From: Sediminibacillus dalangtanensis
GTDB lineage: Bacteria; Bacillota; Bacilli; Bacillales; Amphibacillaceae
Direction of reading: 5' to 3'
Assembly (NCBI RefSeq): GCF_017792025.1
Contig: NZ_CP046956.1
Coordinates: 2,108,001 to 2,172,000, forward strand
Length of the DNA stretch: 64,000 nucleotides
Position 1 is the first letter of the stretch, and each line of letters begins with the position of its first letter. The notes under the pieces were generated by a model that ran no database searches, was not told the origin of the DNA, and was given only the letters and a program-made list of their open reading frames with translations. Of this stretch, positions 35,710 to 40,044 are shown piece by piece. The translations under genes were made by a program, and so were the position numbers.

Positions 35710-36633
35710 ATGGATGTAGTATTTTTAGGAACAGGAGCAGGCTTGCCTTCAAAGGAAAGAAACGTATCGTCCATTGCACTGCGCATGCTGCAGGAAAACC
35801 AAAGCATCTGGCTTTTTGATTGCGGTGAAGCAACACAGCATCAAATTCTGCACACGTCGATTAAACCCAGAAAAATAGATAAAATATTTATTACGCATTT
35901 ACATGGAGATCACATCTATGGGTTGCCCGGCATGTTAAGCAGCAGGTCCTTTCAAAGCGGCGAAACACCTGTGACCATATACGGGCCAAGAGGTCTTAAG
36001 GAATTCGTCGAAACAAGCTTGCGGGTGAGCGGTACAGTTCTTACGTATCCGTTATTTATAGAAGAAGTCAGCGAAGGGCTGCTGTTTGAAAATGAGCAGT
36101 TCGAAGTCATGGCCAAAAAGCTGTCACACGGTATCGAGAGTTTTGGTTACCGTATAACAGAAAAATCCCGTACAGGGGAACTCCAGCCGGAAAAACTCAA
36201 AGCTGCAGGCATCGAGCCTGGTCCTATATATCAACAAATCAAGGAAAAAGAACATGTTACCCTGGCTGACGGCAGAACGATTTCACGAAGCGATTATACT
36301 GGACCTGTCAAACCTGGTCGTGTGATTACCATACTCGGCGATACGAGATATTTTCCGAATTTGAAGAATTTCGCAAAAGGATCTGATTTATTAATTCATG
36401 AAGCAACTTTTAAAGGGGACGATGAAGCGTTGGCGTTTGATTATTTTCATTCGACAAGCAGGCAGGCTGCCCGGATTGCGAAAGCTGCTTCGGTTAACAA
36501 GCTCGTCCTCACCCACATTTCTTCTCGTTACCAAGGAGAAATGCAAGAGCAGCTGCTAGCCGAAGCTCAAGAGATATTTCCCAACACAGCTCTGGCACAG
36601 GACTTTCATCAAGAAGAAATACCACAAAAATAA
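35710..36633 (+). CDS. rnz: Ribonuclease Z
   Basis: Matures the 3' ends of tRNAs lacking encoded CCA. 307 residues; zinc motif HLHGDHIYG, further ligands in [13 protein letters not shown] and VLTHISSRY, and the flexible arm between 150 and 205. ATG behind GGGAGGGATATC. Order namA-rnz is shared with B. subtilis. Confidence 0.96.
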
Positions 36634-37119: not shown

Positions 37120-38388
37120 CTATTCTTTATTTTTTCTGTTTCTATCCTTATAATCATTCAAAAAATCTTTTTGAAAACTGGTTCGAGGTTCAATTTCCAG
37201 TCCCTTTCCACCTAAATTTTTGAAAGGGTTTTTTCCAAATTTTTCAGTCAACTCGTCGATTGTCTTGTAAAGTTTTTCTTTGCTTGCTTCTTTTTCGTAC
37301 GTAAACAAATCAAGCTGCTGTGCAACCTCTTTTTTCTCCGCCACATCTTGGACGGTGATTCCCAACAATCTTACAGGCTCCTCATTCCAATGCTTTTCAA
37401 ATAAATCCATACTAACCGCTAAAATCTCCCCCTCGCTATCTGTATAATCGGGCAACTTACGACTTCTGGTAATGGTTTTGTAATCATGGTACTTGACCAT
37501 AATTTGCATTCCACGGCCTACAGCCTGCTTTCTTTGCATCCTTCTGACAACATTTCTTGCCAGGCGGGTGAACAACTGCCTAATCTCGGTAAAATCGGTC
37601 GTATCCTGCGGCAAGGTCTCTGAGCTCCCAATACTCTTGAACTCATGAACTGCATCGGGGTCAACTGGACTGGTATCCATTCCTTTAGCACGATTCTGCA
37701 ACCGTTCTCCGTTTATCCCCAAGACCCGTTTGAGCTGAAAGGTATCCGCTTCGACCAGATCTTTTATGGTAAAAATGTTCAATTTATAAAGCTTTTCAGC
37801 TGTCTTGCTTCCGATGCCATACATTTCTTCTATAGCGAGCGGCCATAGCTTCGTAGCTAAATCCCGTTTCCGCAACACCGTAATTCCCATTGGTTTTTTC
37901 ATATCCGAAGCCATTTTAGCGAGGAATTTATTGGGTGCTATTCCGATACTGCAAGGCAAATCCAGTTCACTCGCTATTCTGTTTTGTATAGCTTCAGCGA
38001 TTTTTAAAGGAGAACCCAAATGTTCGCAGTCGGTAATATCCATATAACCCTCATCTATCGAAACAGGCTGAACAAAAGAAGTGACATCGGATAAAATGTT
38101 AAACATTTCCCTTGAAGCAGTCCGATACCGATCAAAATTCGGCCGCATTACCAACAGCTCCGGACAGAGTTTTTTTGCTTCCCATAAGGGCATTGTGGTT
38201 TTAACGCCTTTTTTTCTGGCTTCGTAACTGCTTGTCACAATGATTCCTTTCCGTTCTTCCGGATTTCCGGCAATGGCAATGGGTTTTCCTTTTAATTCTG
38301 GATTATAAGCCATTTCAACAGATGCATAAAAACTGTTCATATCGACGTGAAAAATAACACGCCCTTTTTTGGGATACCACTTCGACAT
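37120..38388 (-). CDS. dinB: DNA polymerase IV, Y family (YqjH/DinB type)
   Basis: Low-fidelity translesion polymerase. 422 residues from ATG 38388, chosen because AAGGTGAAGG precedes it; a GTG lies nine bases upstream. Palm motifs FHVDMNSFYASVE and SIDEGYMDIT carry the catalytic acids; GIAPNKFLAKMASDMKKP follows, then the little-finger domain. A clamp-binding motif QLDLF is near residue 367. By synteny with mifM-misCB it is YqjH (PolY1). A LexA-type palindrome sits upstream. Confidence 0.95.
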   Translation of the reverse strand: MSKWYPKKGRVIFHVDMNSFYASVEMAYNPELKGKPIAIAGNPEERKGIIVTSSYEARKKGVKTTMPLWEAKKLCPELLVMRPNFDRYRTASREMFNILSDVTSFVQPVSIDEGYMDITDCEHLGSPLKIAEAIQNRIASELDLPCSIGIAPNKFLAKMASDMKKPMGITVLRKRDLATKLWPLAIEEMYGIGSKTAEKLYKLNIFTIKDLVEADTFQLKRVLGINGERLQNRAKGMDTSPVDPDAVHEFKSIGSSETLPQDTTDFTEIRQLFTRLARNVVRRMQRKQAVGRGMQIMVKYHDYKTITRSRKLPDYTDSEGEILAVSMDLFEKHWNEEPVRLLGITVQDVAEKKEVAQQLDLFTYEKEASKEKLYKTIDELTEKFGKNPFKNLGGKGLEIEPRTSFQKDFLNDYKDRNRKNKE

Positions 38389-38405
38389 AACCTTCACCTT
38401 CTTAC

Positions 38406-38419: not shown

Positions 38420-38670
38420 ACTATTGTTAGTATAGCACATTTTATCTGTTGATACCTTCAGCAGCAAACCACAGAATTTTGGTAATTCATTGAAACCTTC
38501 GGAGGGGTGTTTTTCGTAATAGTTTCATAAGCGAATGATGTTATAGAGGAGAAAAGAAGAAAAAGCTACCCTTTTCCCGACTCTATTTTGTCACGAAATG
38601 TCCTTTGACAAATCGCTGTCAGAGGAGTTTAATAGAAGTAGTTTGCATAAGAAGAAGGAGGTGAATACAA

Positions 38671-39048
38671 ATGTTGATCGAATTATTGAATGAATTGTTG
38701 AGCGAGGCGTCTCCATTTTATTTTTACGTAAGTATGATGCTGGCGATTTACTGTGCATTCGGGTTTTCGGTGATGGCCTTCCCCTCTTTGTCCAAAAGCA
38801 GTGAAATGGTCACCAGAGATTACCACGCAATCCAGTTTCGACTGCTCCCGGTTGAAAGAAGATTAACCGAGACAGGGGAAGTAATTACCTGGATAGCAAG
38901 AAAAATAAAACGAAAAGACGGCCCTGAAGATGATACAGATAATCATTCCTTCTCGTTGACCAATCAGAAATATACCCTACGAGGAGGACAACAATGGAAA
39001 AACATTCTGTATTCACTACCTTTCAAAAGAGCGGATTTATCCTTATAA
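38671..39048 (+). CDS. mifM: MifM-type translation-arrest sensor of membrane insertion
   Basis: 125 residues. The N-terminus (SEASPFYFYVSMMLAIYCAF) and the SEMVTRDYHAIQFRLLPVE segment match MifM (YqzJ) of B. subtilis, whose ribosome stalls until the chain is inserted into the membrane; stalling switches on yidC2. One membrane helix at ~15-38. The region equal to the arrest site reads VITWI (71-75) ... PEDDTD (85-90): W and I are kept, but the Arg before them is Glu. Start behind AAGGAGGTG. Unlike the ~95-residue B. subtilis protein it continues ~30 residues and overlaps misCB by 55 bases. Confidence 0.85.
   Translation: MLIELLNELLSEASPFYFYVSMMLAIYCAFGFSVMAFPSLSKSSEMVTRDYHAIQFRLLPVERRLTETGEVITWIARKIKRKDGPEDDTDNHSFSLTNQKYTLRGGQQWKNILYSLPFKRADLSL
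38947..38988 (+). promoter_or_regulatory. RNA hairpin hiding the misCB ribosome site
   Basis: TCCTTCTCGT (38947-38956) pairs with ACGAGGAGGA (38979-38988) over 10 positions with one G-U, burying the misCB Shine-Dalgarno GAGGAGG. A ribosome stalled near mifM codons 87-90 (38929-38940) would cover the left arm and free the site, as known for B. subtilis mifM-yidC2. Confidence 0.7.
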
Positions 39049-39803
39049 CCCTTATGCTGTTGCTAACCGGATGCCAAGGTGCTTCGGATGGCAGTTCGTC
39101 GGGCTGGTTCCATCATTATTTTGTCGACAGTTTTTCGTTTTTGATAAAAGGTGTAGCGGCATTACTAAACGATAACTATGGAGCATCGATAGTCGTCGTT
39201 ACCTTACTGATACGATTAGCGTTGATGCCATTGATGCTGAAACAGCAAAAAGGCAGCTATCAAATGCGGGAAAAAATGGCCGTGATGAAACCGGAACTCG
39301 ACGAGATAAAAGAAAAATACAACAACAAGACCGATAAGGAATCCAAAACAAAACAGCAACAGGAAATGATGCAATTATATCAAAAACACGGAATGAATCC
39401 TCTCGGTGCTGTCGGCTGTTTACCGATGATTATTCAATTTCCGATTTTGATAGGCTTTTATTATGCCATCAGAACAACTCCTGAAATAGCTTCTCATACT
39501 TTTCTATGGTTTAACTTAGGCCATACTGATATAGTCATGCCATTTATTGCCGCAGCGATTTACTTTGCTCAATTCAAAGTGACGCAAATCGGAATGGATC
39601 CGCAGCAGCGGAAGCAAATGGCTATCATGGGATTGTTGTCACCGGTAATGATTGGTTTTGTCTCCTTTTCAGCCCCGGCAGCACTGCCGTTGTATTGGAC
39701 TGTAGGCGGCTTGTTCTTGATTTTCCAGACGCTTTTGGCTAAGCGACTTTATCAACCAAAACAATCCCAAAAAATAGTGACTACTGAACAGACAGTGAAA
39801 TAG
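38994..39803 (+). CDS. misCB: YidC/Oxa1-family membrane protein insertase MisCB (YidC2)
   Basis: Inserts membrane proteins, alone or with SecYEG; second YidC of Bacillaceae. 269 residues: lipoprotein signal with lipobox LLTG-C27, then five membrane segments. SLVVVTLLIRLALMPL-like TM1 (IVVVTLLIRLALMPLMLKQQ, 20 residues) includes the hydrophilic-groove Arg. The coiled cytoplasmic loop is at ~90-125. Expected to be made when MifM stalls. Start behind GAGGAGG. Confidence 0.94.
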   Translation: MEKHSVFTTFQKSGFILITLMLLLTGCQGASDGSSSGWFHHYFVDSFSFLIKGVAALLNDNYGASIVVVTLLIRLALMPLMLKQQKGSYQMREKMAVMKPELDEIKEKYNNKTDKESKTKQQQEMMQLYQKHGMNPLGAVGCLPMIIQFPILIGFYYAIRTTPEIASHTFLWFNLGHTDIVMPFIAAAIYFAQFKVTQIGMDPQQRKQMAIMGLLSPVMIGFVSFSAPAALPLYWTVGGLFLIFQTLLAKRLYQPKQSQKIVTTEQTVK

Positions 39804-39804
39804 T

Positions 39805-40044
39805 GACAAAAGCGCAAGCGCCTGTTTAAAGGAGTACAGGCTAGAGCCGCCGCGTCCTGTGGCAACGCCTGCATGACACCCACATTGGGCCTCCGACAAG
39901 CTTAAGAACAGCCTCGGCGTGGCGCTTTTTGCCACATAGAGGGTGGGCTTAAGACCTCGAGGGGGTAGGCGCTGGAGCTGGACGTGGCTGGTTCAGCCAA
40001 TAATGATCCACAGACAGTTAAATTCATAATTTCCTATACAGTAA
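39805..40044 (+). repeat. Dispersed 240-bp repeat, copy A
   Basis: Starts one base after the misCB stop and is ~95% identical to 60371-60612, apart from two short indels. Both copies begin GACAAAAGCGCAAGCGCCTG and contain GGTAGGCGCTGGAGCTGGAC. AGCGCCT near the start can pair with AGGCGCT near the end, and CGCCGCGTC with GGCGTGGCG just before CTTTTT. Non-coding; it resembles repeats found in many Bacillus intergenic regions. Confidence 0.85.

Follow-up and report, generated by a model that had tools for sequence, protein, structure and literature searches.

We analyzed a window of 64,000 nucleotides from the genome of Sediminibacillus dalangtanensis (contig NZ_CP046956.1, positions 2,108,001 to 2,172,000), focusing on a small open reading frame (ORF) of the type of mifM, the translation-arrest leader found 5' of the second yidC gene in Bacillus subtilis. 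Here too, the ORF lies directly 5' of a second yidC gene, misCB, and it overlaps this gene by 55 nt including its stop codon. The locus also comprises two predicted RNA helices: H1, a hairpin over the Shine-Dalgarno sequence (SD) of misCB, and H2, a long-range helix joining the start region of mifM to early misCB codons (Table 1). MisCB matches TIGR03592 with 181 bits (cut-off 84.3) as well as the Pfam family 60KD_IMP, and has a paralogue, 47% identical, at genome position 3946548. Judging from its LTGC motif, the N-terminus of MisCB should be a cleaved lipoprotein signal peptide; the Pfam lipobox model scores it 16.4, below the cut-off of 20.

Table 1. Features of the mifM-misCB locus and its surroundings (positions in the window)
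Feature	Positions	Strand	Remarks
mifM-type leader ORF	38671-39048	+	125 codons/125 aa; ATG start; TAA stop 39046-39048
SD of mifM	38655-38664	+	perfect match AAGGAGGTGA, 5' of the mifM ATG
Predicted N-terminal transmembrane segment	38716-38781	+	residues ~16-37; Kyte-Doolittle only
Arrest region, by homology	38878-38943	+	residues 70-91 (E70 V71 .. W74 I75 .. R81 .. PEDDTD 85-90)
H1 5' arm, TCCTTCTCGT	38947-38956	+	begins at codon 93
H1 3' arm, ACGAGGAGGA	38979-38988	+	contains the misCB SD, 38981-38987
H2 5' arm	38654-38675	+	mifM SD (AGGAGGTGA, 38656-38664), spacer, start codon 38671-38673, first two nt of codon 2
H2 3' arm	39001-39023	+	misCB codons 3-10; complement of the SD and start codon of mifM, 325 nt downstream of them
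Near-invariant core of H2 3' arm, TCTGTATTCAC	39006-39016	+	misCB codons 5-8; 1-8 parsimony steps per site
misCB (yidC2)	38994-39803	+	269 aa; ATG at 38994; YidC insertase (TIGR03592, Pfam 60KD_IMP); lipoprotein-like N-terminus
RNase Z-like ORF	35710-36633	+	upstream of mifM-misCB; named by reading
Y-family DNA polymerase-like ORF	37120-38397	-	upstream of mifM-misCB; named by reading
Bacillaceae-1 RNA (RF01690)	39825-39891	+	directly 3' of misCB; 50.8 bits (cut-off 35)

A profile built from four proteins found the mifM frame in 99 of the 159 genomes of the same family, in 28 of its 46 genera, and tblastn gave a misCB match in all 99 of these loci. Named relatives include Sediminibacillus halophilus (94% over the best segment), S. 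terrae (89%), Virgibacillus senegalensis (79%) and S. albus (61%). The 60 genomes without a mifM match have a single YidC match in 57 cases (E 1e-10) and two in G114, G115 and G125; in the last one, reading the sequence revealed a short-type leader 5' of the second YidC copy. Hence, in the genomes of the family, the presence of the leader seems largely to track that of a second YidC. The leader overlaps misCB in 97 of the 98 family loci with a placed misCB start, by a median of 55 nt, the ninety-ninth locus (L022) having no placed start as its misCB is frameshifted. The only locus without overlap, L102, has a short-type leader ending 22 nt before misCB. This bears out the basic claim of a preliminary description of the locus, i.e., a 125-codon MifM-type frame that overlaps misCB by 55 nt. 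A leader that ends before the start of its target, as in the B. subtilis type, is not what we see here, but we did not use this trait to define the type. In L022, and in L036 where misCB is short, the leader is intact, and the state of misCB may reflect either assembly error or decay. In nine loci of genus g36 (L090, L091, L095-L101), misCB starts with TTG. Database searches identified no Rfam match over the leader itself up to E 1, no NCBIfam family for mifM, a single chance-level match in Pfam, and only chance-level matches in a sequence search of the PDB.

The peptide has the layout of a MifM-type sensor. Its best 19-residue hydropathy window (1.79) starts at residue 18-19, and windows starting past residue 45 reach at most 0.32. 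The hydrophobic peak (residues ~18-37) is thus separated from the acidic patch (~90) by about 53 residues, and hydropathy places an N-terminal transmembrane segment at about the distance from the arrest site described for MifM (median of 54 residues in the available passages of PMC10987492). In the window, the arrest region contains E70, W74, I75 and the acidic cluster P85-E-D-D-T-D90; the preliminary description had pointed out W74-I75 and the cluster, and the alignment of 94 family loci agrees, with W74 in 91, R81 in 88 and D87 in 92 of them, and D or E at residue 90 in 92. The spacing from the tryptophan to the acidic residues is the same as in B. subtilis, W73-D86 there (residues from the available part of PMC4423224) and W74-D87 here, and the W-I pair followed at +13 by an acidic patch is found as W74-I75 and D87-D88-T89-D90. 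The residues R69, I70, M80 and N81 of B. subtilis are here E70, V71, R81 and K82. Since these four are not shared by all homologues, their absence would lower the identity of the mechanism in its details, not the membership in the MifM type. The earlier suggestion of a lineage-specific arrest sequence is supported. The glutamate at the position of Arg69 had been noted as a difference from B. subtilis. The residue is indeed there, but it does not set this gene apart: this position, four residues before the tryptophan, is E in 38, P in 19, D in 18 and K in 5 of the 94 loci, so that E, P or D (75 of 94) is the norm of the family. The next position is I, V or L in 62 loci. Stalling of MifM depends on Met90 of uL22 (PMC4423224, in the part available), and the uL22 of the same genome carries the motif FRPRAMGRA, with a methionine aligned to Met90. 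From these similarities we infer that the leader stalls, with arrest expected, by homology, at codons ~90-93.

Selection on the peptide appears to stop close to the arrest region. On the MisCB tree, codon positions 1, 2 and 3 changed in 9.2, 7.3 and 24.9 steps for residues 81-91, and an excess at third positions runs from the N-terminus of mifM to residue 91 (L089 and L092, whose tails are in another frame, are excluded here as well as from the counts of silent classes, pairing partners and stops). For residues 97-102 the values are 24.3, 24.8 and 23.8, without codon periodicity. Hence, the arrest region is probably under protein constraint, whereas the tail beyond residue ~91 is without visible selection on the peptide. 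The preliminary description had proposed that its reading would fail if the frame were not conserved after residue ~60; codon periodicity does persist to residue 91, but not in residues 97-102. The frame itself nevertheless seems to be kept open. In the H1 region, a stop occurs in the mifM frame in none of the 94 loci, and in the other two frames in 57 and 54. Before position +43 of misCB, 2 of the 94 loci have a stop, as opposed to 20% when misCB codons are resampled synonymously, and the observed and resampled values converge further on (18% vs 39% before +46, 50% vs 54% before +52). This comparison indicates that the frame is kept open past H2 while the amino acids of the tail show no sign of selection. 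Constraint after residue 91 would rather act on the RNA, where the tail and the early misCB codons form two covarying helices. This RNA-level nature, and the complement of the mifM ribosome-binding site inside the overlap, had been missed in the preliminary description.

The first helix, H1, is predicted over the misCB SD with a z-score of -2.1 (6 of 200 shuffles as good), and over 96 family loci the mean pairing probability of this SD is 0.90. Several of its pairs switch between Watson-Crick types among 95 loci, e.g., G-C in 63 and T-A in 16, or C-G in 67 and T-A in 19. Prediction and covariation thus suggest a hairpin hiding the SD of the target. Codon 90 is at 38938-38940, which places the 5' arm within the expected footprint of a ribosome arrested on codons 90-93.

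The second helix, H2, comprises 21 pairs and is present in both the minimum free energy (MFE) and the centroid structure of 38630-39045. H1 and H2 occur together in the MFE and centroid structures of the window transcript, whose z-score is -3.0 (1 of 100 shuffles as good). When mifM and the 120 nt upstream of it were scanned for partners in 94 loci, the SD/start region of mifM came out best: it averaged -14.2 kcal/mol, against -5.9 and -6.9 for the windows that overlap it and -4.1 for the best coding column. The complementary segments, GGAGGTGAATACAGATG in mifM and CATCTGTATTCACNTTCTT in misCB, change jointly between clades (96 loci), as in the variants TTTATATTCAC/GTGAATATAAA, GGCTTACTCAC/GTGAGTAAG and CCTGCATTCAC/GTGAATGCAG. 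Among 95 loci, the 12 core pairs of H2 are formed in 93% of the cells, as against 22-56% in 16 slid registers, and 13 compensatory changes occurred on the same branch, as against a maximum of 3. The three highest corrected covariation scores among 1840 column pairs all belong to H2. Shuffling whole arms among the 44 distinct rows gave 77% pairing, and the observed 89% was reached in 0 of 2000 shuffles. Outside the core, pairing is weaker (54-93% on the SD side, 38-45% at the two pairs past the start). Hence, prediction and covariation both point to sequestration of the mifM SD by a distant segment of the mRNA. The column counts for H2 leave out L063, where the script misplaced the start; the mifM start of this locus is apparently ATT (AGGTGAATACAGATT), a rare start codon, and the H2 partner is largely retained. 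In nine loci, a T-C mismatch takes the place of one core pair. Inverted repeats can serve as operators, and one could think of two regulator sites ~325 bp apart in the DNA instead of an RNA helix. We give this almost no credence, as one arm consists of an SD and a start codon, and the partners of two invariant G of the SD are C or T in 86 and 88 of the 95 loci, meaning that G-U is tolerated, as in RNA.

The 3' arm of H2 contains a nearly frozen block in misCB codons 5-8, where first, second and third codon positions are affected alike (Table 1; site counts leave out L022, L036 and L102 for the frameshifted misCB, short misCB and short-type leader mentioned above). Immediately past the block, the next misCB third position changed in 32 steps; intermediate third positions have 9-22 steps, and those from 20 nt further on 28-41. 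Relative to expectation, misCB codon entropy is 0.10-0.27 at the four block codons; the two codons after them have values of 0.93 and 1.03, and the following five 0.44-1.08. Changes per opportunity in the block are 1.17 when silent in misCB, 1.11 when silent in mifM and 0.85 when silent in neither; in the next 15 nt they are 5.40, 2.87 and 3.19. As the three classes are about equally rare in the block, it points to an element maintained at the nucleotide level. This bears on the preliminary description taken without change, in which a lineage-specific arrest leader overlaps misCB by coding constraint only. Protein-level conservation of the arrest region and conservation of the overlap itself fit such a view, but we consider it very unlikely: codon periodicity is absent from residues 97-102, the 11-nt block is indifferent to both frames, and its covariation with a site 325 nt away disfavours it. 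It is even harder to believe that Leu-Tyr-Ser at residues 113-115 is a second peptide signal, such as an arrest site past the misCB start. These residues are frequent (L in 76, Y in 91 and S in 81 of 94 loci), yet the third positions of their codons are nearly as frozen as the other positions (7, 2 and 2 steps), and L113 and L118 keep the RNA pairing with the mifM tail in another frame. We rejected such a second arrest site because, within the block, changes silent in mifM are no commoner than the rest, and the loci with the other frame keep the pairing. Two further candidates were discarded: a pairing of the block with the acidic-patch codons, suggested by a first fold (best column -4.1 with the own partner and -4.6 with swapped ones), and a -1 frameshift from mifM into misCB at TTTAAAA, a site that is not conserved position by position.

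We also searched the order, where 52 of 397 genomes matched, 44 of them outside the family. We fetched 40 of these 44 loci, and found a misCB match in 39 and none in L129; a script assigned the starts in these order-level loci on the basis of SD matches, without inspection of each one. Over family and order, H2 was the best of ~300 windows in 103 of the 113 loci with overlap and in 1 of the 24 without. Partition functions tell a similar story: the probability that the mifM SD pairs with positions 0 to +70 of misCB exceeds 0.5 in 85 of the 95 family loci, in 13 of 16 further loci with overlap and in 3 of 23 without. Overlap and H2 are found together in the order loci L103-L113 and L116-L118, including L113 and L118 where the tail of mifM is in the other frame and H2 is kept, and altogether in seven family-level groups (f1, f4, f22, f24, f25, f32, f43). 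Group f43 has both situations, two B. subtilis-type loci without overlap or H2 and three loci of other genera with both. In L124, of group f25, mifM ends 16 nt before misCB and its diverged start, GGGGGTGGAACAGATGAT, still pairs with ATCATCTGTT of misCB. These comparisons among loci support the ORF, its conservation and both helices with their covariation.

The known systems share parts of this organization. In its available descriptions, MifM-YidC2 (YqjG) of B. subtilis has the same N-terminal membrane segment, the same W-I and acidic-patch arrest 5' of the second yidC and a hairpin hiding the yidC2 SD. The window locus differs from it by the replacement of R69, M80 and N81 and by the overlap with misCB. 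In contrast, the leaders of the B. subtilis-type loci L180 and L181 (RI[IT]TWIRKVFRMNSPVNDDED) end 29 nt before yidC2. These loci have neither H2, the yidC2 start ranking 52nd of 215 and 199th of 332 windows, nor the frozen box, and no 24-mer near their mifM start is better than -10.5. The B. subtilis gene order around yqjG is presumably similar to the neighbourhood of Table 1. In CliM-YidC2 of Clostridia, an arrest peptide 5' of yidC also opens a stem-loop over the yidC start, but the consulted passages of PMC13183943 do not mention pairing with the leader's own start. The ribosomes arrested in SecM-SecA and VemP-SecDF2 likewise open a hairpin over the target SD; these belong to another pathway, and a gate on leader initiation is not mentioned in the part of PMC10987492 at hand. 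The passages on MifM in PMC4423224, PMC6037786, PMC10987492 and PMC13183943 describe only a hairpin over the target start.

In Escherichia coli gnd, an internal sequence of the coding region is complementary to the upstream ribosome-binding site. That case stays within one gene, whereas here a coding segment of the downstream regulated gene pairs with the start of the leader. In icaR of Staphylococcus aureus, according to the available text of PMC3868564, initiation is blocked when the SD pairs with a remote part of its own mRNA; unlike here, this partner is in the 3' untranslated region of the same gene, with no arrest leader or overlapping frame. We found no report of a pairing between the mifM start and yidC2 in a search limited to open-licence papers. 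Hence, H2 appears to be new relative to the literature found, while the pairing of an SD with a distant segment is already known from icaR.

We consider it probable that the locus is a MifM-type monitor of YidC with two RNA locks, where initiation is gated by the coding sequence of the target. H1 would hide the misCB SD until a ribosome arrested at the acidic patch covers its 5' arm and frees the SD. H2 would close the whole leader into one domain, and the misCB coding sequence would thereby shut off mifM initiation. An unarrested mifM ribosome would translate across the 3' arm of H2 and briefly free the mifM start, and a ribosome translating misCB would do likewise. We propose that the mifM frame passes the misCB start because the unarrested ribosome must cross this arm. 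Both the sequestration in vivo and this gating logic are what we infer from predicted and covarying structures. The frame across the misCB start, described earlier as a read-through, is real, conserved and open, but the overlap is better accounted for by the covarying helices than by read-through as an end in itself. The alignment of homologues proposed at that time does reveal a conserved tryptophan and acidic patch, and a tail that appears constrained as RNA, not as peptide.

Several observations weigh against the two-lock monitor. High covariation scores are also found for off-helix column pairs (one fourth of the 1840). The energy of H2 is modestly exceptional: with -22.8, it is the best of 24 SD-bearing ORFs of the window (mean -17.1, standard deviation 2.2), and some of the pairing is what any complement of an SD would give, swapped pairs averaging -17.0 as compared to -22.2 for own pairs. 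While energy alone would not exclude chance, chance complementarity to the SD as the whole explanation of H2 is countered by the covariation. H2 has a pairing probability of at most 0.5 in 10 of 95 family loci, and some other window outranks it in 10 of the 113 overlap loci. The overlap occurs without H2 in L122 and L134, and H2 without the overlap in L124. Since both traits are inherited, their association does not represent that many independent events. Sites +5 to +17 after the block anchor show some conservation too, with 9-22 steps at third positions of misCB, which leaves room there for coding constraint on misCB. Finally, our folding model, in which ribosome footprints were assumed to reach ~14 nt upstream and 15 nt downstream of the P-site codon, gives partial openings. 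An arrested ribosome raises the accessibility of the misCB SD from 0.00 to only 0.53 with H2 staying closed, and H2 also stays closed with a ribosome parked at the mifM stop. With a mifM ribosome on the H2 arm or in the tail, accessibility rises to 0.74 for the mifM AUG and to only 0.25 for its SD; adding a ribosome on misCB frees the AUG to 0.78. If real, the gate would thus open only during the passage of ribosomes.

H2 could have other roles. It might mainly lock misCB a second time: the mifM start region would cover misCB codons 3-10 and so reduce the leak from ribosomes passing through H1, with secondary effects on mifM initiation. The 3' arm begins at nt 8 of misCB, codons 3-10 lie inside the footprint of an initiating 30S subunit, and every unarrested ribosome must melt H1; we also count in its favour that the authors of PMC10987492, in the passages available, assume that passing ribosomes transiently disrupt the hairpin of the uDF_RQH reporter. 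Nonetheless, the pairing is centred on the SD and start of mifM, and a lock for misCB only has no need of the initiation site of the sensor, which makes this role unlikely. It is slightly less likely still, in our view, that H2 serves mRNA turnover, as a long-range duplex cut by RNase III when untranslated. It has the precedent of icaR, where the distant SD pairing that blocks initiation also feeds RNase III (PMC3868564, in its available part), and the 21 bp of H2 in the window fold are in line with it, but by itself it gives no reason for the mifM frame to stay open beyond H2.

Within the two-lock monitor, a more specific and doubtful possibility is that H2 acts as an occupancy gate, re-closing behind the initiating ribosome and admitting one sensor ribosome at a time. 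Re-closed H2 would keep further ribosomes from queueing behind the arrested sensor, and it would reopen either when an unarrested ribosome passes through the overlapping tail or when, after an arrest, misCB is translated. If so, each mRNA would deliver discrete, non-colliding readings of YidC capacity, the translation of misCB licensing the next one.

In the available parts of the literature found, arrest leaders are described as opening their target by stalling, and regulation of the sensor's own start is not taken up. Our comparative evidence suggests that, here, the start of the sensor pairs with coding sequence of its regulated target gene. It also carries a warning, since residues conserved in the tail of an overlapping leader can owe this to constraint on the RNA alone. 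If the two-lock monitor is true, translation of the target would feed back on loading of the sensor, and there would be a reason for the out-of-frame gene overlap seen in seven family-level groups. It would also offer a testable explanation of the means by which arrest systems could keep ribosomes from queueing.
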